Assembly (NCBI RefSeq): GCF_020520425.1
Contig: NC_079491.1
Location: forward strand, 35,331,449-35,395,448
Direction of reading: 5' to 3'
Length of the DNA: 64,000 nt
From: Spinacia oleracea
Lineage: Eukaryota; Streptophyta; Magnoliopsida; Caryophyllales; Amaranthaceae
Below the pieces are notes generated by a model. The model saw nothing but the letters and a program-made list of their open reading frames with translations. It made no database searches and was not told the DNA's origin. This document shows positions 52,401-64,000 of the stretch, one piece after another; position 1 is the first letter of the stretch, and each line of letters opens with the position of its first letter. Both the position numbers and the translations under genes were made by a program.

Positions 52401-53610
52401 TTCTTTTAATGTTCTTATCAAAAATAAAATTTAATTTTTTATTAAAGTTAAAGTTAAGGTTTATGAAGTTAAAGTTTAAGATTCTGAAGTTAAAGTTGAC
52501 TAGACTTGAGAACTTAGTAAAAGTTTGTTTTTACATTGAAAGTTTGAATATATACATTAAAATTTAGTGAAGTATAATATTTCTCTGAAGTGTATATATC
52601 TTTTAATCTGTCTTTTGTTCAAAAATGTAAAAGTTGAGATTTATATATTAAAAGTCAGGCTTGATACAGTAAAAGTTGAGGTATATTTGCTTAACTTTTA
52701 GCATAAAATTAACAACTTCTAATATGTTACGTAACTTTTTCTAAACATCGCCAAAACCCATGTTACTTGGACTGACTTGGATACGTGTCCAAGTGTCTAA
52801 CCTAGCTAAATTGTGAATTTTTTTTCGGATTTAAGTTGAAAATAAAGTTTCAAAGTGTTTGAAACCATGTCGGAGTGTCGAGGGTCTGACATGGATACTT
52901 AACGTACAATGAAGAATTGAAGTAATATACCAAAAACCAATATTATACTTAAAAGTTGAGAGTTTTGTACTTAAAGTTACCCTTTTTGTAATAAAAGTTA
53001 GATAAACTAATATTAAATTTTCTTAACTATTACAATAACAAGGCTAACTTTAATTATGATAATCTTAACTTTAAGCATAGAATCAACAACTTTAAATACA
53101 TGTTTCAGAATCCTAAACTTTAACTTTGGATTCCTTAACTTTAACTTCAAATGCCTAAACTTTAACTTTAAAATCTTAAACTTTAAGTTCAGAAACCTTA
53201 ATTATAACTTCAGACTCCAAAACTTCAACTTCAGATGCTTGAACTTTAACAACAGAATCCTAAACTTTAACTTAAGAACCCTCAACTTTAACTAAATTAT
53301 CCTAAACTTTAACTTCAGAAACTGAACATCACCAAAAACCAATATTATACTTAAAGTTGATCTTAACTATAACAATAACAGGGCTAACTTTAATTATAAT
53401 ATTCTTAACTTTAACCATAGAATCAACAACTTTAAATACATGTTTATAAGTTCTACTGAACATCACCAAAAACCAATATTATATGCCATACATACACAAA
53501 AAAGGCATTATACTCTAGAGAAATATTTTTGTGAAAATGTAAAAGTTAAGATTATTGTACTTAAAGTTAACCTTCATGTAATAAAATTTTAGTAAACTAA
53601 TATTAAAATT
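52401..53610. repeat. MULE 3' region with AAAGTTA/TAACTTT arrays and an embedded unrelated insert
   Basis: Same degenerate motif as the introns: plus-sense at 52440-52690, minus-sense at about 53040-53330. Between them 52757-52912 is different in style (acttggactgacttggatac...gtcggagtgtcgagggtctg) and resembles a dispersed plant repeat. A phrase with catcaccaaaaaccaatatt recurs near 53325 and 53460, showing local duplication. Confidence 0.75.
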
Positions 53611-53879: not shown

Positions 53880-54735
53880 TGTGAGGGGGTCGAAAACGCA
53901 CGAGGCTAATGCGTGACCTCGTCCCTCGTGGGTGTGACGCTTCTTTTTGTCAAATCAAGTGTAATTGGATTTCCTGTGAGTTTACACCCAATTGACTAGT
54001 AATATAGGAGCCGCCATTCAGTTTTTAACGACAATGAGAAAAACTGACAAAACCCGGTTATCGTGACATAAAGGGAGTGCAATTATGTTTGACCACGACG
54101 GCCGTAGGTTCCCTTGTGATCCCTGGTGGTGGGGATCGCTCAACGTACACCCGCAGGGTAGAGATTGAGGGTTCGGGGGACTGTAACTACCGAGAGGAGT
54201 ACTCGCTCTTCGATAACTCCAGAGGCAGGATATCCTTACTAGCTCAGCATAAATAATTGAAGGGACATGCGTTAACTATTAAACTAATCTGAGTTGATTT
54301 TAACAATATGAAACATATAATACTAAATCGAGCGCGATTATCTGATTTAGATCGTATTAAGGGACCTAGCATGATAATCCAATTTCCCAAAACATAATCT
54401 TTATTAGGCGTGATAGAACAATCAGATTTAATTAGTTTAACAGTTCATAAAAGGGCGAGGAAAGCAATTAAATCATAGAAAAGGGACACATTACGACGCA
54501 CCCTTGAGAGGTACGTCACGGTTCTCAGAAAACTAACCACTTTGACTTTTCTATTTCTCCTTTTATTTAACGAATCTCAAGTTATGGGAAAGGATACGTT
54601 CTGTTCGATTTATGGATCGATTGCGACAGAACGCGTGATCAATTTCGCAGCGTGAGGCTTTAGGCTTAGGGGTTGGAGTCAATACTCAGAATAATAATTG
54701 TGTGTTGTTGTTCTTTTCACGTCGAACTTAAGGCC

Positions 54736-54745
54736 CTATTTATAG
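54736..54745 (-). promoter_or_regulatory. TATA box of the Tat LTR
   Basis: CTATAAATAG on the minus strand, followed by GGCCTTAAG, inside the LTR where the U3/R promoter is expected. Confidence 0.6.
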
Positions 54746-54820
54746 AAAAGAGTTCGTGGAAAGATAGAATTGTAGAGTTCTAATCCATGAGGAATTAGGA
54801 AAGAATACGTCCCAGGTAAT

Positions 54821-54877
54821 TTCAGCGCCCAGACCTGGGCGCCGAAGATTTCGGCGCCCAGAGCCAGGCGTTGAAAA
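54821..54877. repeat. Paired-palindrome module A (in LTR)
   Basis: Two adjacent imperfect palindromes: ttcagcgcccag-acctgggcgccgaa (54821-54846, read in two halves) and ttcggcgcccag with ...caggcgttgaa. See the matching modules at 57160, 58106, 59732 and 63880. Confidence 0.9.
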
Positions 54878-55370
54878 TAGGATCTGGGCTATTTTCTTAG
54901 TCAGATTTGGATTCCTAGAATCCAGAGTATTTGAGACTTAATCGAGTCTTTTAGTGCGTATTAACCTTGTGACGGAATGCGTCTGGGCCCGTTACGAACT
55001 CTAGGCTCGTTAGGATTTTAATTAATGCGTGACTCTTATTTTCGAATCATATTAGGAATAGGATTCTCTCGTAATCTCTATCTCATTTAGGATTTATGTT
55101 GGAGTGCAACACCTAATTCTGACAGGTTTCTATCTTTTATGACTTGCCACTTTTAACAACTACCCATTACGGAAGTTACTATTTTTAGCAGGTTTCCATA
55201 AATAGCAGGTTTCTATAAATAGCAGGTTTCTATAAATAGCAGGTTTCGGGTGAAATGAAAAGGGGAATTGAGATTCGTTATTTTATAGGAGATGCGTTGT
55301 CAAGTGGAGATTTATGTTTTCATCATCGAACCTTCCCTTTCGGGAATGGGGACAAAAGTAGGTGTCTACA

Positions 55371-55387
55371 GTTAGCCCCCACTTTGA
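55371..55387 (-). promoter_or_regulatory. Polypurine tract of the Tat element
   Basis: TCAAAGTGGGGGCTAAC on the minus strand, touching the TGTAGACACC start of the 3' LTR. Confidence 0.75.
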
Positions 55388-55549
55388 CTGAGTCTTGGAG
55401 TAAGACGATGGTCAAAGTATTAGACGGAGTGGGTCAAACAAGTCATGGTGACCTGTTTTTGCGAGGGTCTCACGAGCCCCCGAGTGATAACATTTGACTT
55501 AAGGGTCATCACTTGAAGTGTCGACATATCCCTCACGTTTGTCAACGGA

Positions 55550-55634
55550 TAGTATAGAAACTTCCTCACTTTGTCATTGGAAGGATCTAAAGGTGCGTAG
55601 AAACTCCCTCACTTTATCATTGGGAGTAGCTACA
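55550..55634. repeat. Two-copy tandem repeat, about 43 bp
   Basis: gtatagaaacttcctcactt followed by tgtcattggaaggatct, then the related gcgtagaaactccctcactt followed by tatcattgggagtagct. Confidence 0.75.
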
Positions 55635-55784
55635 GAAGATGTTTTCGAAATCAAAGCTATAAAGTGTAATTGGGCCTGGCCAAGCCCAATCACGAGGCAA
55701 AAATGTTTTAAAGATTCTCATTTTCAGGGTTAGCTAAACGAGAAAACCTCCTTGTTTTTATGGGACGTAAAACGAAGGAAATCC

Positions 55785-55985
55785 AGCACATCATTCTTTT
55801 TTGGAAAAAACGGAAAACCATCTTTAAGAAAAGGAAAGCTACTCACATCGTTCTTTTTTTGGAAAAAACGGAAAACCAATCTTTGAAAAAAGGGAAAGCT
55901 ACTCACATCGTTCTTTTTTGGAAAAAACGGAAAACCAAAAGCTACTCACATCGTTCTTTTTTGGAAAAATGGAAAACCAAAAAAA
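55785..55985. repeat. Four-copy tandem repeat with ttcttttttggaaaaaacgg
   Basis: Units of about 43-60 bp starting near 55791, 55850, 55909 and 55952, each with catcgttc(t)n-ggaaaaaacggaaaacca and, in the longer ones, aaaggaaagctactcacat. Unit length varies by deletion of the middle part. Confidence 0.85.
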
Positions 55986-56005
55986 GTTATCGCTGCAGCG
56001 ACTAA

Positions 56006-56360
56006 GGACCTGCGCGGTTAGTGACGCAGACCCCGCCGGCTAAAGATGGCGAGCCTGTCCGCTAAGGGTGGACACCCCGTCCGATAGAAGTGGACGAATC
56101 TATTTTGAAATTTGTTTTTATTTTTTGAAAATAAGGACTTACGTGGTTTGCGCCGTAGACCCCGCCGGCTGAATATGGCGAGCCTGTTTCATTTTGTTTT
56201 TTGAAGATTCTATTTTTCGAAAACTGAGGATCTGCGCGGCTAGTGACGCGGACCCCGCCCGCTGAGGGTGGGCGAACCCTGTCCGCTGAGGGTGGACGTC
56301 CCTGAATTCGCGTGGTTCGTGATGTGATCTCGCCAACTGAGATGGGCAAGTTTCCTATTT
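56006..56360. repeat. Four-copy repeat of small GTCCGCTGAGGGTGGAC-type hairpins
   Basis: Copies begin near 56006, 56132, 56228 and 56310 with gga(c/t)ctgcgcggttagtgac or variants. Each contains one to three short inverted repeats of the form GTCCGCT-gaggg-TGGAC, GCCGGCT-aaaga-TGGC or CGCCAACT-gaga-TGGGC. The hairpin form is conserved although the sequence varies. Confidence 0.75.
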
Positions 56361-57159
56361 TTTCATCGTGATTTCTTTTTTGAGAATTTCTTTTGTTCAT
56401 TCTTGCAAGAGCGAATTCTTTTGAGGGATGCTCGAATTTAGTTGTGACCTGAACGTGGGTTGACAACGGGTTTAGACGGACCTTCGTGGTTTTGAGCTAG
56501 TCTTTTCGGCTCGATTTTTTCCACTACTTGGCCTTTGATCAGAGGACTATGTACAAGTGTCCATGACGACCCTTTTCTGAGGTCGAACCTGCTCTTTTGA
56601 GATCATCCAAACATGGGACGGCGTATAGCGCAGTCCGGGAATGTGATTTCGATTGCGCACTTTGGAGTATACTTTTCGCGAGCCCCCAAGCACTCGGGCT
56701 TTGTTGGTCATTTTTCGCATACTTCATAACGTCTTTTAATCATGTTTGGGGTCGTGCTCGTATGTGCGAGCGACCTTTCATAGTGGTGTGCTATTTTGGC
56801 GAAGTCGTGGGGTGCGACTTCAGTCTTCGGGCGACAAGGTTTAATATCATCCGGTTTAGCTTGGCCCGGATTAATCTTTGACAGACAAACATTTTTTTTT
56901 GAGAAACCAACGACTTAACAACATTTTTTGGTGTTTCGAAGAATGACCTTGATATTTCATATTTGTTTTGAAAAGTGTACATATATGTTTCTTGAGACAA
57001 GTCTAAGTTTCGACCAAGTTTACCATTCATTTTTGCTATTTGGGAGCTTAAAGGTGCTTTTGGGCTCGATCTTAATTGCAATAGGGCCTCGTGTCTAGCA
57101 ACACGGTTTTAAGTCTTTTCCTGCTCCGCGTTTTGTGAAATCTGGGCCTTGGGCTGCAT

Positions 57160-57217
57160 TTTCGGCGCCCAAGGCTGGGCGTTAATTATTTCGGCGCCCA
57201 GCTTCGGGCGCTGAAAG
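57160..57217. repeat. Paired-palindrome module B (upstream of antisense gene)
   Basis: ttcggcgcccaaggctgggc followed by gttaattatttcggcgccca and gcttcgggcgctgaaa. Same order and orientation as module A. Confidence 0.9.
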
Positions 57218-57296
57218 TCCTTTCCTGGCGAATTTTGACTTTCGAATTTCTTAACGCGTTTCCGAATGGGATCAGGATGTCACTTGATGCGTTCAG

Positions 57297-57307
57297 CTAT
57301 ATATAGG
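57297..57307 (+). promoter_or_regulatory. TATA box of the antisense gene
   Basis: CTATATATAGG on the plus strand, 80 bp before the ATG at 57387, followed by a pyrimidine-rich leader. This is the arrangement of an ordinary plant Pol II promoter. Confidence 0.6.
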
Positions 57308-57386
57308 GGCTAGATACGTCCCTATTTTCCATCAATCTCAATTTCCTTCTTTCTTTGCTGTGTTTTAGTTACTCCTTGCTTTCGTC

Positions 57387-59202
57387 ATGTCGATTCCTGC
57401 TTTCTCACTCCAACGGGCTGTTAGGCGTTGGCTACGGGCCCTTACTCCTACAGAAAAGGCTTTGTTGAAAGAATACCACTTAGAGGCACTTTTAGGCTTA
57501 CAACAAATTAACATTGACTATAATTTCCTGCATGCAGCCCTAAGCTTTTGGGATTCCGATCATCATGTTTTTGTCTTTCGGGGCAACGAAATATGTCCTT
57601 TGCCAGATGAATTTGCTGCGATCCTTGGTTATCCTACTAATGCTACCCCTGCCACTCCTGGCACTATTGAAGAGAGTAAAACAACCATAGGGGCTTTCCT
57701 AGGACTAGATGCTAACATGCTTGCTGAAATTGTTGTAGGTGATGAGGTTAATTTGGCAAAACTTGTAAAACATCACTTTAGGCCTAGTAAGAATATGACC
57801 GAACAGAAATTGAATATTCGAGCCCTTGTATTTTGCTTGTTGAATCATTATTTGCTGTCGAATAACAATGGTGAGTTCGGTGACATAAGGTTGATCCCCT
57901 TGATTAGCTAGATGGAAAGTTGCTATTCTATTATGCCGTTGGTGGTTGCCGAGACTTTGCTGAGTGCGGATGAGCTGAAGAAGGACGCCAAATCTGAATA
58001 TTTTAAGGGAAGCCCCCTATTACTGCAGGTAATCAATTTTTTTCTTTGCGCACGTATACGTTTTTTTGCAAATATATTTTTTATTCGTCCTGCCTTGGGG
58101 CTGAGTTTCGGCGCCCAGGGCTGGGCGCTAGAATTATCGCCGCCTGGTCCTGGGCGTTGAAACTGCGCCCCAGGAACCGTTTTCTTTTTATTATTTATTT
58201 TTTTTGATCGTACCCGTTTTTTGCAGATTTTGGCTCGTGGAACGGCTTAGGCTCTTGGAAGCTCCTGCCGATCCTAAACATTATCGCCCTATAGCCTTGG
58301 GTAACCGAAAATATTTGCACCGAGGCCAGGACGAGGCCAAATGGGCCTCCTTTTTTACTCATGGCATCTGTTCTATTAAGTGGGTGGTACCATGGTGGGG
58401 TTTGACTACTATGACGGGGGGTTCTGATGTATCGGTTTATGTTTCTTTGTTGGGGCTATCTCGGCCCACATATATTTTCCCTTACCGAGTCATGCGTCAA
58501 TACGGTTTAAGGCAGACTATCCCCTTTTCTGATACGGTACCACCTAAAGTAGCGGCCTTTTCACAAGCACGGGTTCAAGCGTGGGCTAAGTATTATGATG
58601 GTCTCCCGCGTTGGGCCGTAGCTACAAATGGCTTTGTGGGTCTTTCTGAAAACTACAAGTTGTGGATGAGCTATGATAAAGCTGTGAGGACCGAGGCTCG
58701 AAATGGGGAGCCGGCTGAGCTTTTGATACCTCGTATTCGTGTTAAGTATGAGGGTCCTGATTCTGCCAAACCTCGTACCCATGGTATTAAGACTGTGAAA
58801 GCTCGTCCTGATCGAAAGCGAAAGGAAGTTCCTCCCCGTTCCAGTTCCAGGCCTAAAAAGATGCCTAACATGAAGGGGCCTGTTGCTGTTAAAAGAAATG
58901 CAAGCTCTCGCGGAGATCGTCGCCGGAAAAATGTATGGGTTAGGAAGGCTCAGCCGCCTGTAGAAACAGTGACTAGTCTAGTTGATGATAATAATCCTTC
59001 TCCCACCATTGTCTGTGCCCTTGAGGCTGAGCGGGCTATAACCGAGAATGTTTCTGAAGCCTTGGCATATTCGGAAGTTAGTGTCCAGGAGCCGGTTCTT
59101 ATGGAGATTGATATAGGGGCAGCGCAGAAGACTGTGGGGGTGGATCCTGCGAACATTGCCCTCTACAAGACTTTATTTGATGATCCGGAAGAACTAGAGT
59201 AG
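57387..59202 (+). pseudogene. Antisense ORF of the Tat element: plant-mobile-domain/DUF7745-like protein
   Basis: Exon 1 runs 57387-58028 (donor gtaatc) and exon 2 58227-59202 (acceptor tttttgcag). The N-terminal part (QRAVRRWLRAL, then FLHAALSFWDSDHHVFVFRG and EICPLPDEFAAILGYP) and the second part (KWASFFTHGI, VVPWWGLTTM, YIFPYRVMRQYG) have the W..L/FWD/F.F...E..P..DE/ILG pattern of the plant mobile domain, as in DUF7745 proteins. The C-terminal third is a basic, disordered tail (RKRKEVPPRSSSRPKKMP, RRRKNVW) ending acidic (FDDPEELE). An in-frame TAG at 57909-57911 interrupts exon 1, and the exon 2 frame is offset by one base just after the acceptor (T-run near 58228-58231), so this copy is broken. 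An aataaa at about 59297 may be its poly(A) signal. Such domains are known as passengers of Tat elements; their role is not established. Confidence 0.8.
58106..58175. repeat. Paired-palindrome module C (in the antisense gene intron)
   Basis: tttcggcgcccagggctggg/cgctagaa, then atcgccgcctggtcctgggc/gttgaaac, then a half site gcgccccagg. The second palindrome is more diverged than elsewhere. Confidence 0.85.
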
Positions 59203-60530
59203 TGTAGTTCTTGCTAGGGTGTAGGTGCCCTTTATTTATTTCAGTTGTGTTTGTTTTTCATTCTTTAGCACTTTGTTTTCCTTCTTATTTTTTTTAAATA
59301 AAGGCGTATTTCATTTTTTGTTTCTCCTCTTTTTTATATTTTTATATGTCTAACACTTTTTTGCACAATTTATATATGTTTTTTTTTATTGGACCGAATC
59401 CTTGGTAAGGATTGCCTACGTATCTTGTCAGAATCAGGTCGCGCGTAGTTCTAGCTAGAATAAGTTCTAGGATGCCGGATTTTAATAGATATGCCCTGAG
59501 GTGGTAGCATATTACTTAATCGGTCAAACGAGTGAAGTATTATCATTATTTTCGTCTCGTCTACCGTTTTTTCCGTAAGTATTATGTAAAAATGAAATTC
59601 GACTATTTTTGTATGGCTGTATTTTTTGGTAAGCCTGTTTGGATACGTGCTGTACCCCCCAAGTGTTCGTTATTTTTCCGTTATGTGCGGATAAAATGAC
59701 GAGCACTTCTAAAAATTAGACAGGCAGAGAGTTTCAACGCCCAGGCTGGGGCGTCAAAGATTTCGGCGCCCAGCCCTGGGCGCTGAAAATGATTTGGGCG
59801 GTCGTTTTTGATGCTTTGCTTCACGTGTTCTTGCGTTTCTTTTTTCTTTTTTTTTTTCTTTTTTTTTTCGTTTTAGTGCTTTGATTTTTGCTCGTATTTA
59901 AAATCAATTTTGAGGCTATTTCGGAGGCTTTTTTTACTGTTAGCGTGAGATGCATTTTTGTCCGGATTAATTTTTTCTATCCCTGACTCGAAACGGTTTT
60001 GAAAATGGAGTTAGGGTGTGGAAGATATGAAGATCTTTGTGTAGGCTTTTGAGGTGGGTTGAGGTGCGTGTCGTTTTTGAAGGGTATGGCGGGGTTACAT
60101 TTTATTAATTCCCTTTTTAAGCAACATTTGCATTTGTTTTGGATTTTGATTTCCTTCGATTTCTTTGGGTTGCATGGATTGACTTTTATGTTTTGGGGAT
60201 ATGAAGGGGATGGTGCGGTTTATTTTGTGGGTTTCGGGAATTGGTTCCCATGGCACTATTTCAAGACCGAGTGGGCCTCGTTTGTTGGGCCTAGAGTGGG
60301 CCGCCTCTTTATTTTTGTATTTCGCAAGTACATTTGGTGCTTACTTTAGTGTTAGAATAAATTTTTTAGGAGAAATATTACGCCTTTATTAATTTGGAAA
60401 GTAAGGAAAACACACTGAAATAAAATTGACCTATATTCTAATGGGTCTTAGGACCATCTAAAGTCTTTATTATTCTTTTTACCAATTTAAAGAACTACTA
60501 GGCGCTTTTTACTACGGTGCTCTATGTGGC
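59203..60530. other. Non-coding gap between antisense gene and protease
   Basis: This is where RT, RNase H and integrase would be expected in a complete Tat element, but I find none of their motifs on the minus strand. The sequence is T-rich with long homopolymer stretches (about 59838-59870). The plus frames at 60059-60392 are F/W/G-rich without family resemblance. Palindrome module D lies here. Confidence 0.6.
59732..59788. repeat. Paired-palindrome module D
   Basis: tttcaacgcccaggctgggg/cgtcaaa, then tttcggcgcccagccctggg/cgctgaaaat. The second palindrome is the most perfect of the set. Confidence 0.92.
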
Positions 60531-62374
60531 TCAAGCCTTGGGTTTAGTCTCGTAAAACTTTGGTCCTTCACCGGTACTCATCTTGAATTCTATTCCTTTT
60601 GCATTGACCCACTGATATATCTTCACCCATCCGTTCTCGATCTCTTCTAATGTTGATGCAGGAGCGATTAACCGGGTTGGATCGAAACCTTCATCTTGTA
60701 AAGCTAGGGTAGTCATCACAGTCTCGTCCTCCATAGGCCTCGATTCGTTAAACAATGTCCATAGAGCCTGGTCGTCCAATATTTCAGCTGTTTTAGTCTT
60801 GGTGAGGTGGGGTGCCTCATCCAAGGTGTGGCAGTCATGGAAGATTTCAAATCCTGGTTTTAGCAAGCCATCCTGAACGAAGGGTTCAGGGAAATCACAG
60901 CATGGGTGTCCTTCTCCTTCCCGAACGAACATTCCGTTAAGGGTTCTTTGATACGGGGGAAGGAGGGTGGTTTGTTTGGCCTTGTTAAGGCGCAGCCCAG
61001 ACAGGCGGTCAGCAATATCTTCCTCCGTTGGTTCATAGCCTAAGCCAAAGGGAGTAGGTTTGTTGGGTAAAGGATGGAATGTGCATTCCTTCTTCCTTAT
61101 GCCCAATGGGGTTCCAGGGAAATAACCTTGAGCTAACAGCATTCTAGGGATGACTTGGGATGCGTGCGGGTCTAGTAATGCTGGATCATAGTCTTCGATG
61201 AACTGGATTGCTTCTTCCATTTGAAACCCGTAAAGGTCGTCTGCAGTTTCGGCCGTTCCAACCATAGTACAACTGACGTCGAGAGGAGGGGCGCGGATTT
61301 TTAGTATTACCCCGTTATGGTTAAGTTTAACCATTTGGTGCAAGGTAGAAGCCACACCTCCTAAGTCATGGAGCCAAGGTCGCCCCAAGAGGAGGTTGAA
61401 AGTGGGCTTGATGTCGATTATTTGAAACTCCGTGGTGCGTGCCACAGGCCCGGTTTGTATGGTAAGGTTGATTTTTCCCAACACAGGCCTTCGGGAGTTA
61501 TCATAAGCTCGTACCCCTTGCGTGGAGGTTTGGAAGTCATCGTTTCCTAGCCCCAAGCAATGTGCGGTTCGCAATGGGAAAACATTAACCGCCGAACCGT
61601 TATCTACGAGTGCTTGGGGGATGTTTTGTCCTTTGCATCCAACTACTAAATAGAGGGCTTTATTGTGAGCACCCCCCTCTTTGGGCAAGTCTCTGTCAGT
61701 GAAAATATGGCCTTTTCTCCGGCATCTCTCGTGACGTGGCTAACCAATGAGTCAGGTGTGATATCTGTAGGTACTGAGATGAGGTCGAGTGAGCGAATAA
61801 GCTTTTCGCGATGTTCTTTCGAAGTACACATGAGATCCCAGATGGTAATTTCGGCTTTGGTTCTTTTTAGTTGTTTCAAGAGAGGATTTTCAATGACTTC
61901 TGCGATGGTGGCGTGCCGTCCACTCTCAGGAGTTTGCCTAACTGGGATATCGTCCATAGGAGGTGGGCGAATATCCGGTTGGTATATCCTTCCGGATCGG
62001 GTGAGGTTGTCGACCTCGGGCTCCTGAGGGGTGGTGTCGATGTGAGCATACCAGGGCCAAGTTTCAGTAAAGAGGTCCTGGCCCGACACTTGAGATAGGT
62101 AAATATCTTCAGCATCATCATCCCACACACCGCACACTTCTCTCTCGATTCGATCCATAGGGACCACAGCAAGTGGTGCACCTTGAGGCGTAATGTACAC
62201 CGTAGGGTCGAAGTTCTCATTTTCTGGTTGGTCGAGAGAGATGTGACAAGAGCCGAGTGGGCTCTTGTTGTTGTTGGGTTTGCCAACGTTAGGGAGAGGT
62301 ATTACTTCATCCTCTATCATGTCCTGGATTGTATTTTTTTGGTTCCAGCAGTTTTCGGTGTCATGCCCATTTCC
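60531..62374 (-). pseudogene. Tat protease region (end of Gag and retropepsin)
   Basis: Two overlapping frames. 62320-61646 holds a Gag-protease linker (MIEDEVIPLPNVGK, SGRIYQPDIRPPPMDD, HREKLIRSLDLISV). After a frame change near 61,650-61,690 the frame 61688-60531 (385 aa) carries the aspartic protease: ALYLVVGCKGQNIPQALVDN followed by GSAVNVFP, where VDNGSA is the active-site motif of this lineage, then FQIIDIKPTFNLLLGRPWLH (flap/ILGR-type end). After about 200 more residues it stops at 60531 with ...FYETKPKA, before any RT motif such as the usual Y.DVFAWS entry. Confidence 0.85.
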
Positions 62375-63501
62375 TTAATGGAACTTGCAATAAGTACCTT
62401 CGACCCAGTATTTGCTCTTGACAGGAGGGTCACGGGTGGGGCCTATAGGTCTCAACTTTCCTTGATTGGTTAGTCTTTCGAAGGCTTGTACCAAAGTCGA
62501 CCCGAGTGGGGCAAACTTTCGGTCTCGGACCCATCTTCCAGGGCTTCTTCGGGCGGGAGTCTCCTCTACGATATGGACTTCTTGGGCTTGGGATGTGTTG
62601 CCCCTGTTGTAGGTGTTGCTTTTGTATGCGGGTTTACTTTGTATTGTTTTTGCGAGATCATCCTCGATCTTTATTCTCACATCATAAACTCTTTTGAAAG
62701 TGTCAAGTCCCAGGTACCTAAGGTGTTGTCTGTAAGCCGGGTCCAGGATGTCAATGAATTTTTGGACCAATTCTGTTTCGGGAGGCCTATTGATTAGTTG
62801 GGCCGCCTGGTCCCTCCATCTAGCAAAGTAGGTTGTGAAACCCTCATTTTTCTTTTGGAAGAAACTTCCAGCTCGCGCATGGTGACTTGAAAATCCATGT
62901 TCGACGAGTATTGCTTGATGAAGACATTGACAAAGTCTTCCCAAGTGGGGAAGAGCTTAGGGTCCTGGTGATAGTACCATTTGAGCGGCACATGTTCCAA
63001 GGACAAAGGAAAGGCAGGTAAATACATGGACTTGTCCACGCCTTTCAAGTTCATGGCATTCACAAAGCTCAATAGATGATCACGGGGATTGTCCGTGGCT
63101 TTAAACTTTGGTAAGTCAGATGAACTAAACTTTTCTGGTAGTTTTCCAGGAAAAGGTTCAGGATCGAGGGAGAAGTACTTGCTCCCCATGGTTTGCTGTA
63201 GGACCATTTTTTTCAATCCTCTTCTCGTTATCGAGGTCATTTTTGGCTTGTGCAGCCGCTAAGGCTTCGTTTTCCATTTTCAGTTGGCCCATGAGTTGGG
63301 TCATTTGAGCCATCTGGTCCGCAATTCTTCGATGGACATGTTTGAGGGTGCGAATCGAGGTTGGGGAAGCGGAGATCCTTGAAATGAGGGATGACGGACG
63401 GAGCTTGGAGTCACTAAACCTGGTGTTGGCGATGTATCTTCGAGGCGCACTAACCGTTGATTTCCTGATCGGCACCAAGTGGCAGGACCAGTCCTATGCA
63501 T
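62375..63501 (-). pseudogene. Tat gag, broken by frameshifts and a stop
   Basis: Gag is spread over several frames. An N-terminal part with a coiled-coil-like segment (MAQMTQLMGQLKMENEALAA) is at 63478-63158. The retrotransposon Gag core is at 63240-62794 (LPKFKATDNPRDHLLSFVNA, KWYYHQDPKLFPTWEDFVN, FIKQYSSNMD). After a further frame change near 62,850 the core continues to 62375 (FTTYFARWRDQAAQLINRPP, FIDILDPAYRQHLRYLG). The frame then meets a stop at 62375-62377, inside what looks like a zinc-knuckle motif (YCKFH before it, GNGHDTENCW after it). At least three separate lesions make this copy non-functional. Confidence 0.85.
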
Positions 63502-64000
63502 AAGATAAGCTAAAGTTTAGGTCCCAAAGTTTCAAGTATTACTTAGTCTAGACTTCGACTCTCTCTATTGGTTTTTCACTCTTTCTTTTGTTGGTACACT
63601 TTTTAGTTCTTTCTTTTGGTCATTCTTTGGATTTTCGAAACACTTGCCCGTGTGACATTCATAATTATTAGCATGTTCGGTTTTGGTGTCGAGCAGTGTC
63701 GTCGTAGGAGGCCTAACAACGACGCAAAGAGTTATTCTTTTTTATGAGTCGCTTTTTAGAATCGAGTGCTTTTCTTACGCCCTCGCAGCAATTTTTTTAC
63801 GAACGGTTTTTTTTGCTACGTGTTTTCTTTTTCGCGGGCACCGAGGCTGCTGCGCCTGACCAGAAGGCCAAGCAGCAACTTCAGCGCCCAACGTCGGGCA
63901 TGAGAAATTCTGACGCCCAGCCAGGGGCGTTGAAAATGTGTCCCTGGCTGGTTCTCGTTTTCTGTTTGCGTCTACTTTTGTTTATGCGACTTCGATTTTG
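63502..64000 (-). other. Leader of the Tat element
   Basis: Upstream of gag on the minus strand, no coding signal. It contains palindrome module E. The primer binding site and 5' LTR must lie beyond the right edge. Confidence 0.6.
63880..63936. repeat. Paired-palindrome module E (upstream of gag)
   Basis: ttcagcgcccaacgtcgggc/atgagaaa, then ttctgacgcccagccagggg/cgttgaaaat. Same order, spacing and orientation as modules A to D, but more diverged in the first palindrome. Confidence 0.85.

Follow-up and report, generated by a model that had tools for sequence, protein, structure and literature searches.

Repeated palindromes have been described in the long terminal repeats (LTRs) of the Sireviruses, a Ty1/copia group of plant retrotransposons. 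Their 'RM' boxes are palindromic, dyad-symmetric and CpG-containing; the LTR holds several of them upstream of its TATA box, additional ones stand just 5' of the extra internal (envelope) gene, and a regulatory role was proposed for them but not tested there (PMC2829016). In maize, the palindromic hairpins of Sirevirus LTRs are small-RNA hot spots (Bousios et al. 2016, as cited in PMC10760457), and for maize Ty3 elements the citing paper reports no obvious peak of such structures (PMC10760457). Elements of the Retand/Tat type carry antisense genes between pol and the 3' LTR as well as tandem repeats, and include non-autonomous members; a transcriptional role has been proposed for their antisense proteins, for which a TRP28 domain was named (PMC11963269). 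Here we describe a module of paired palindromes that recurs in an element of this same lineage type, a Tat element (Ty3/gypsy) on the minus strand of a 64,000-nucleotide stretch of the spinach (Spinacia oleracea) genome (C5:35331449-35395448 of the 894-Mb assembly; hereafter the window). With moderate confidence, we regard the module as a cis-regulatory DNA element of the Tat lineage, an array of half-sites that would be read by a sequence-specific protein and would switch both the LTR promoter and the promoter of an antisense gene.

The module spans 57 bp and consists of two imperfect 28-bp palindromes (half-units) whose starts are 29 bp apart, and its core is formed by two CGCCC-N6-GGGCG dyads, that is, four inverted CGCCC half-sites. 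The initial annotation of the window had pointed out five copies, and all five were recovered at the positions given, both as one repeat family in a repeat search of the window (54813, 57153, 58099, 59725 and 63872; 66 nt, 64-79% to the reference copy) and by a matrix search. The matrix covers 27 nt and was built from the ten half-units of the window; at a score of at least 12 the 64-kb window holds exactly those ten and no others (scores 29-45), while the top scores in ten Markov-shuffled windows were 7-16. The core pattern, allowed up to three mismatches on both strands of the window, has 23 matches, 19 of which lie inside modules, compared to 0.56 expected. The copies had also been said to avoid coding frames, and indeed none overlaps a listed reading frame of at least 100 amino acids (aa). 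The description as two tandem palindromes captures the structure correctly, but the lowest-energy plus-strand fold of the first four copies is a single long hairpin because the two palindromes also pair mutually; the minimum-energy plus-strand fold of the fifth copy differs from this hairpin. That all copies share one orientation says little, since the module is palindromic: pairwise identity is 0.65-0.81 one way and 0.60-0.79 the other way, and the flanks prefer neither orientation (mean score 12.5 versus 12.0, ten pairs). The number of half-units varies in related copies, with 0, 1, 3 or 4 instead of 2 at some spots; enhancer repeats vary in number likewise.

The five spots, namely the LTR, the promoter of the antisense gene, its putative intron, the gap between the convergent genes and the gag leader (Table 1), recur in three Tat families. 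Family A is that of the window element and encodes gag and protease. Family B is represented by four loci (L047-L050) that are about 90% alike over long stretches and have the LTR, a tandem-repeat block and the leader in common with A, and it contains no frame above 150 aa and no tblastn match (1e-3) to the gag, protease or antisense frames of the window. In these four loci the module is present in every LTR, gap and leader (4/4 each), at the antisense-promoter spot in three, with only one half-unit scoring in two of these, and at the spot matching the putative intron in three, L048 being without the whole block. Because the flanks differ, it is uncertain that the 'intron' spot is the same site in A and B. 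Family C (L091) encodes reverse transcriptase (RT), RNase H and integrase and carries a plant-mobile-domain gene, and the integrase comes after RT and RNase H as the last frame before the antisense gene, as in Ty3/gypsy. It shares the LTR, antisense-promoter and gap spots with A (its leader lies outside the stretches viewed): a module stands 20 bp upstream of a TTTAAATA box near the plant-mobile-domain gene, and the gap between the convergent genes holds a module plus a third, degenerate half-unit.

The initial annotation knew of no named feature like this one, which needs a small correction, since the Sireviruses have comparable boxes, palindromic and repeated, that precede the TATA box and also lie next to an internal gene (PMC2829016). 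As with the RM boxes, the repeated palindrome lies upstream of the TATA box of the LTR, at 75-78 bp in 35 of 37 LTR rows (four of the 37 repeat the same genomic place, and the pattern found no box in the remaining two), and a copy lies 5' of an additional internal gene, at 81 bp in the window and 20 bp in family C, although here this gene is antisense and not an envelope gene. Unlike the Sireviruses, the Tat host belongs to Ty3/gypsy and not to Ty1/copia, because the integrase of family C follows RT and RNase H. The module further differs from the RM boxes in its invariant CGCCC/GGGCG core with variable outer bases instead of CGG-CCG, in its fixed pair of 28-bp palindromes (usually two per LTR) instead of eight or more short boxes, and in its additional presence in the leader, the convergent-gene gap and the putative intron. 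Like the maize Sirevirus hairpins, its palindromes occupy a cis-regulatory LTR region and are predicted to form strong hairpins. Taken together, the module is best read as a Ty3/gypsy counterpart of the Sirevirus palindromic boxes. The antisense frames studied here match DUF7745 and the plant mobile domain, unlike the TRP28 domain named for Retand/Tat. In the text of PMC11963269 a cited title is the one place with 'palindrom', and 'hairpin' is absent; the spinach repeat survey PMC6337768 does not contain the word 'palindrom', and none of the titles and abstract openings listed in searches of openly licensed papers revealed such a module for Tat, Ogre or Retand, which is not proof of absence in print.

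The module is abundant in the genome and appears to be confined to Tat relatives. The exact core GGCGCCCAGNNCTGGGCGC has 5,920 + 5,748 matches across the 894 Mb, and the 28-bp half-unit has 29,892 sites with up to three mismatches, while the reversed control gave 0 in both searches. The first 30 exact matches listed all lie in sequence related to the window element (blastn), and the 39 further module sites are likewise all in Tat relatives, 38 of them belonging to family A or B and L072 to family C, while a fortieth locus, L088, which was no match in the searches, has no module; the resulting 69 of 69 checked sites come from lists ordered by place and mismatch and are not a random draw. Among eight random 10-kb stretches, which are the first eight of 120 drawn places (the draw covered contigs C2, C3 and C6 incompletely), modules were found in two (L039, L045), both in the LTR or leader of the same lineage, and the other six were without a module, a single match in L043 (15.7) being at the level of shuffled sequence. 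A freely spreading parasite, one of the options raised by the initial annotation, is not supported by this confinement. As regards the hallmarks of a miniature inverted-repeat transposable element (MITE), the one module-free relative inspected, L048, which is the single empty site compared, has no clear target-site duplication.

Relatives that were found by DNA other than the module itself usually keep it. At the gap spot, 19 of 20 relatives located through a separate block 3' of the antisense gene carry the full module and one a contracted form; these 20 are from the first of the 2,666 block places that are absent from the module lists, which biases them towards more diverged modules, and all have the exact block. 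(The 2,666 genome places are those of a 32-base piece of this block, with up to three mismatches.) The antisense-promoter spot of family A behaves in the same way, with 19 full and one contracted among 20 copies found by downstream DNA and examined out of the 40 best-scoring of 2,426 candidates. The spacing between the palindromes is therefore kept in 38 of 40 copies, the two others being contracted.

Sequence comparison between families points in the same direction. When nine A copies of the gap spot are compared with ten C copies, identity amounts to 76.3% in the module (shuffled 48.5%) and to 46.4% and 51.2% in its 60-bp flanks (shuffled 49.2% and 53.3%); the 19 copies were recognised by the module matrix, which favours likeness, and the one contracted copy was excluded. 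Within these copies the module has no insertions or deletions, compared to 5.0% (A) and 1.4% (C) gapped in other windows, and fewer substitutions, 0.050 versus 0.095 in A and 0.058 versus 0.074 in C. CpG columns (10 inside and 38 outside the module) change about three times more slowly inside (0.056 versus 0.173 in A, 0.036 versus 0.097 in C). The CGCCC of 328 arms hardly varies, while their outer TTTCRR does, most of its changes being transitions.

The initial annotation had also stated that differences between copies often keep the pairing, which was not borne out. The alignment was restricted to modules with 29-bp spacing and grew from 91 rows (67 distinct) to 110 rows (82 distinct); many rows of the 82-module alignment were picked up because one half matched exactly, which lowers variation in that half, and the repeat loci L009, L015, L016, L024-L028, L072 and L001 were dropped from it but kept in the LTR and antisense-promoter rows of the TATA and substitution counts. 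In the 82 distinct modules the long hairpin has 82.6% of cells paired, against 82.8% in shuffles, with 26 doubly changed cells against 33, and the local hairpins have 86.2% against 86.4%, with 10 against 18. For covariation, the local hairpins score 0.132 compared to a shuffled mean of 0.129, and 125 of 500 shuffles score at least as high. Pairing selection on an RNA hairpin is thus unsupported, the covariation test that the annotation itself had named as a possible refutation having come out negative, and on these counts such a fold was rejected as the principal explanation. Single sequences do fold stably on both strands (z -2.7 to -8.3), with plus-strand energies of -44.9 to -64.5 kcal/mol in 101-111 nt, module 3 being the most stable of the five (-64.5 kcal/mol in 111 nt), and the hairpin's own pairing (82.6%) far exceeds slid pairings (at most 50.9%), both because the sequence is palindromic. 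Since covariation fails, what is conserved is, judged from these comparisons, the DNA sequence of the CGCCC-N6-GGGCG dyads and not an RNA fold. A search of Rfam gave three sub-threshold matches, two of them over modules, and none is credible; the two weak matches to microRNA (miRNA) precursors stay below their gathering thresholds (30 versus 89 and 24.6 versus 100 bits).

Conserved half-sites and fixed spacing, together with the lack of a pairing constraint, therefore suggest a protein that reads double-stranded DNA, and a protein-binding site is the best supported of the four options of the initial annotation, the module also being promoter-proximal at two spots. A sequence-specific protein would bind the CGCCC-N6-GGGCG dyads, probably as dimers. 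Because modules 1 and 2 sit 75 and 81 bp upstream of TATA boxes, their most likely work would be to switch the LTR promoter and the antisense promoter together, while the leader, gap and putative-intron copies may act as further enhancer or boundary sites. A palindrome could serve in either direction, and the antisense gene runs opposite to the sense promoter. As a side effect, transcripts with such strong hairpins may enter the small-RNA silencing of the host. The sequences themselves establish that the module is present at these spots, that its geometry is fixed, that its sequence but not its pairing is constrained and how far it stands from TATA boxes; protein binding and a transcriptional effect are what we infer from these patterns. 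The binder might be the element's own antisense-encoded plant-mobile-domain-like protein, although this is a guess: plant-mobile-domain proteins of Arabidopsis are needed for genes with the 'DOWN' promoter motif, direct binding not having been tested (PMC7156037), and this link makes the element's own protein a candidate binder, no more.

Several observations weigh against this reading, and those on the second spot in family B and in young family-A copies speak against a role purely in promoters. The substitution deficit at the gap spot is modest: of the overlapping windows, 36 of 377 in A and 145 of 371 in C have no more substitutions than the module, and with gaps counted as well the numbers are 24 and 75; these figures are ranks among overlapping windows of related copies and not probabilities. 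In family C the right-hand stretch, extending into the integrase frame, has diverged less (0.057 versus 0.069 in the module), and the second spot of very young family-A copies shows no deficit in the module (0.043 versus 0.041 in the upstream flank). Three of the five window copies have no TATAWA box within 160 bp, the leader copy having only 65 bp to its right, and at the second spot of family B, 21 of 23 rows lack a TATA-like box within 160 bp downstream while the module is still present (one of these rows is a second row for the same place and another a weak additional half-unit). Finally, the LTR of L091 has lost the module, whereas an LTR 11.7 kb away (L132) carries it.

Part of this evidence would also suit a self-spreading or passive repeat, a palindrome that expands and moves by template switching during reverse transcription and is kept only through recent bursts. 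The half-unit number varying from 0 to 4, the absence of the whole block from L048 at one spot, flanks that in some copies are alike beyond 57 bp (by eye) and the young family-A copies without a deficit all agree with it, but it does not account readily for flanks at random level around a module that is 76% identical between A and C, for retention in 19 of 20 copies at two spots, or for the lack of any copy outside Tat relatives in 69 checked sites, and we consider it unlikely. Alternatively, and in line with the insulator-like option of the initial annotation, modules at the ends of transcription units (LTR, leader, gap and antisense promoter) could act as boundaries or insulators that keep the convergent sense and antisense units apart, for which the Su(Hw) sites in Drosophila gypsy are a model. 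Such a role needs no nearby TATA box and agrees with family A, whose spots mark the ends of both units, and with family C, in which the antisense promoter and the gap are occupied, yet family B keeps modules without recognisable genes to separate and module 3 lies inside the antisense gene, which makes it distinctly unlikely.

A long hairpin of two-fold symmetry in the full-length sense RNA could instead serve packaging, dimerisation or export, with retroviral transport elements as the model. All five spots are untranslated in the sense RNA, the non-coding family B, which would need cis signals only, keeps its modules, and the folds and own pairing given above are as expected, the latter as for any palindrome. 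The missing covariation in long and local hairpins, where only the local score slightly exceeds its mean, and a bias of G-T over A-C mismatches towards the antisense and not the sense strand (246 versus 147) leave this RNA role quite improbable. The hairpins might also be a trigger of host silencing, as small-RNA targets or decoys. The plus-strand folds lie below the -40 kcal/mol typical of pre-miRNA windows, and Sirevirus palindromes collect small RNAs (both from PMC10760457); however, a mere trigger should be lost by selection and the two miRNA matches in Rfam are far below their gathering scores, so we give this reading the smallest chance, a very slim one. We also considered, and set aside, that palindromes attract insertions of LTR elements, a preference called weak in PMC6911290.

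Table 1. Modules, TATA boxes and coding features of the Tat element, in window positions
Feature	Position	Strand	Context
Module 1	54820..54876		in the LTR, upstream of the LTR TATA box
Module 2	57160..57216		upstream of the antisense gene
Module 3	58106..58162		between the two antisense frames (putative intron)
Module 4	59732..59788		gap in which the antisense gene and the gag-protease frames converge with their 3' ends
Module 5	63879..63935		leader upstream of gag; most diverged of the five copies
TATA box (TATAAA), LTR promoter	54739..54744	-	75 bp from module 1
TATA box (TATATA), antisense gene	57298..57303	+	81 bp from module 2
LTR	about 53880-55370		element on minus strand; ends from blastn of other copies
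Antisense gene	57387..59202	+	two frames, 57387-57911 and 58204-59202
Gag and protease frames	60531..63240	-	weak Pfam matches

The antisense gene of the window matches DUF7745 with 27.1 bits (cut-off 26) and the plant mobile domain below threshold. Its first frame stops at 57911, well before module 3, and therefore the gene may not be intact in the window copy. This copy is probably non-autonomous, because no RT or integrase frame is among its listed frames between protease and the antisense gene. Its 5' LTR would lie beyond the end of the window. Two sets of short tandem repeats (window 55787-56302), of a kind known from the 3' part of such elements, lie between the 3' LTR and the antisense promoter, and a 21-bp tandem array is found outside the LTR at 53062-53355. 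The LTR contains an inverted repeat of 25 nt (84%; 54556-54580 and 55268-55292) with 687 nt between its arms. A further inverted repeat, AAGTGTTCGT...ACGAGCACTT (window 59661-59711), stands just before module 4, and family C has it with a different loop (by eye). The block 3' of the antisense gene (window 59375-59457; L091:5512-5596) is 95% identical in families A and C, unlike the 60 bp adjoining module 4, which do not align between them. At the module-free LTR of L091, a CCAGG junction (L091:403-412) looks as if a palindrome-linked deletion had occurred between two such repeats. Family A has frames for gag and protease but none for RT or integrase; those for RT, RNase H and integrase are found in L091, where apparently little room is left for gag if L132 is its other LTR. 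Families A and C are possibly mutually complementing partners.

A more specific version of the regulatory proposal, which we regard as speculative and rather unlikely, is that the module is the operator of a retrotransposon circuit. The antisense protein would bind the dyads of the LTR and of its own promoter and set sense versus antisense expression, and non-coding relatives would keep their operators and be driven in trans by the coding families. If true, plant Ty3/gypsy elements would have in this circuit an analogue of the antisense regulators of retroviruses.

The module thus offers a concrete candidate binding site for the role of Tat/Retand antisense genes, a question left open in PMC11963269. 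With about 30,000 half-units in an 894-Mb genome, a protein that recognises the box would have many potential targets. Should the module prove to be regulatory, both of the big superfamilies of plant LTR retrotransposons would possess palindromic control boxes.

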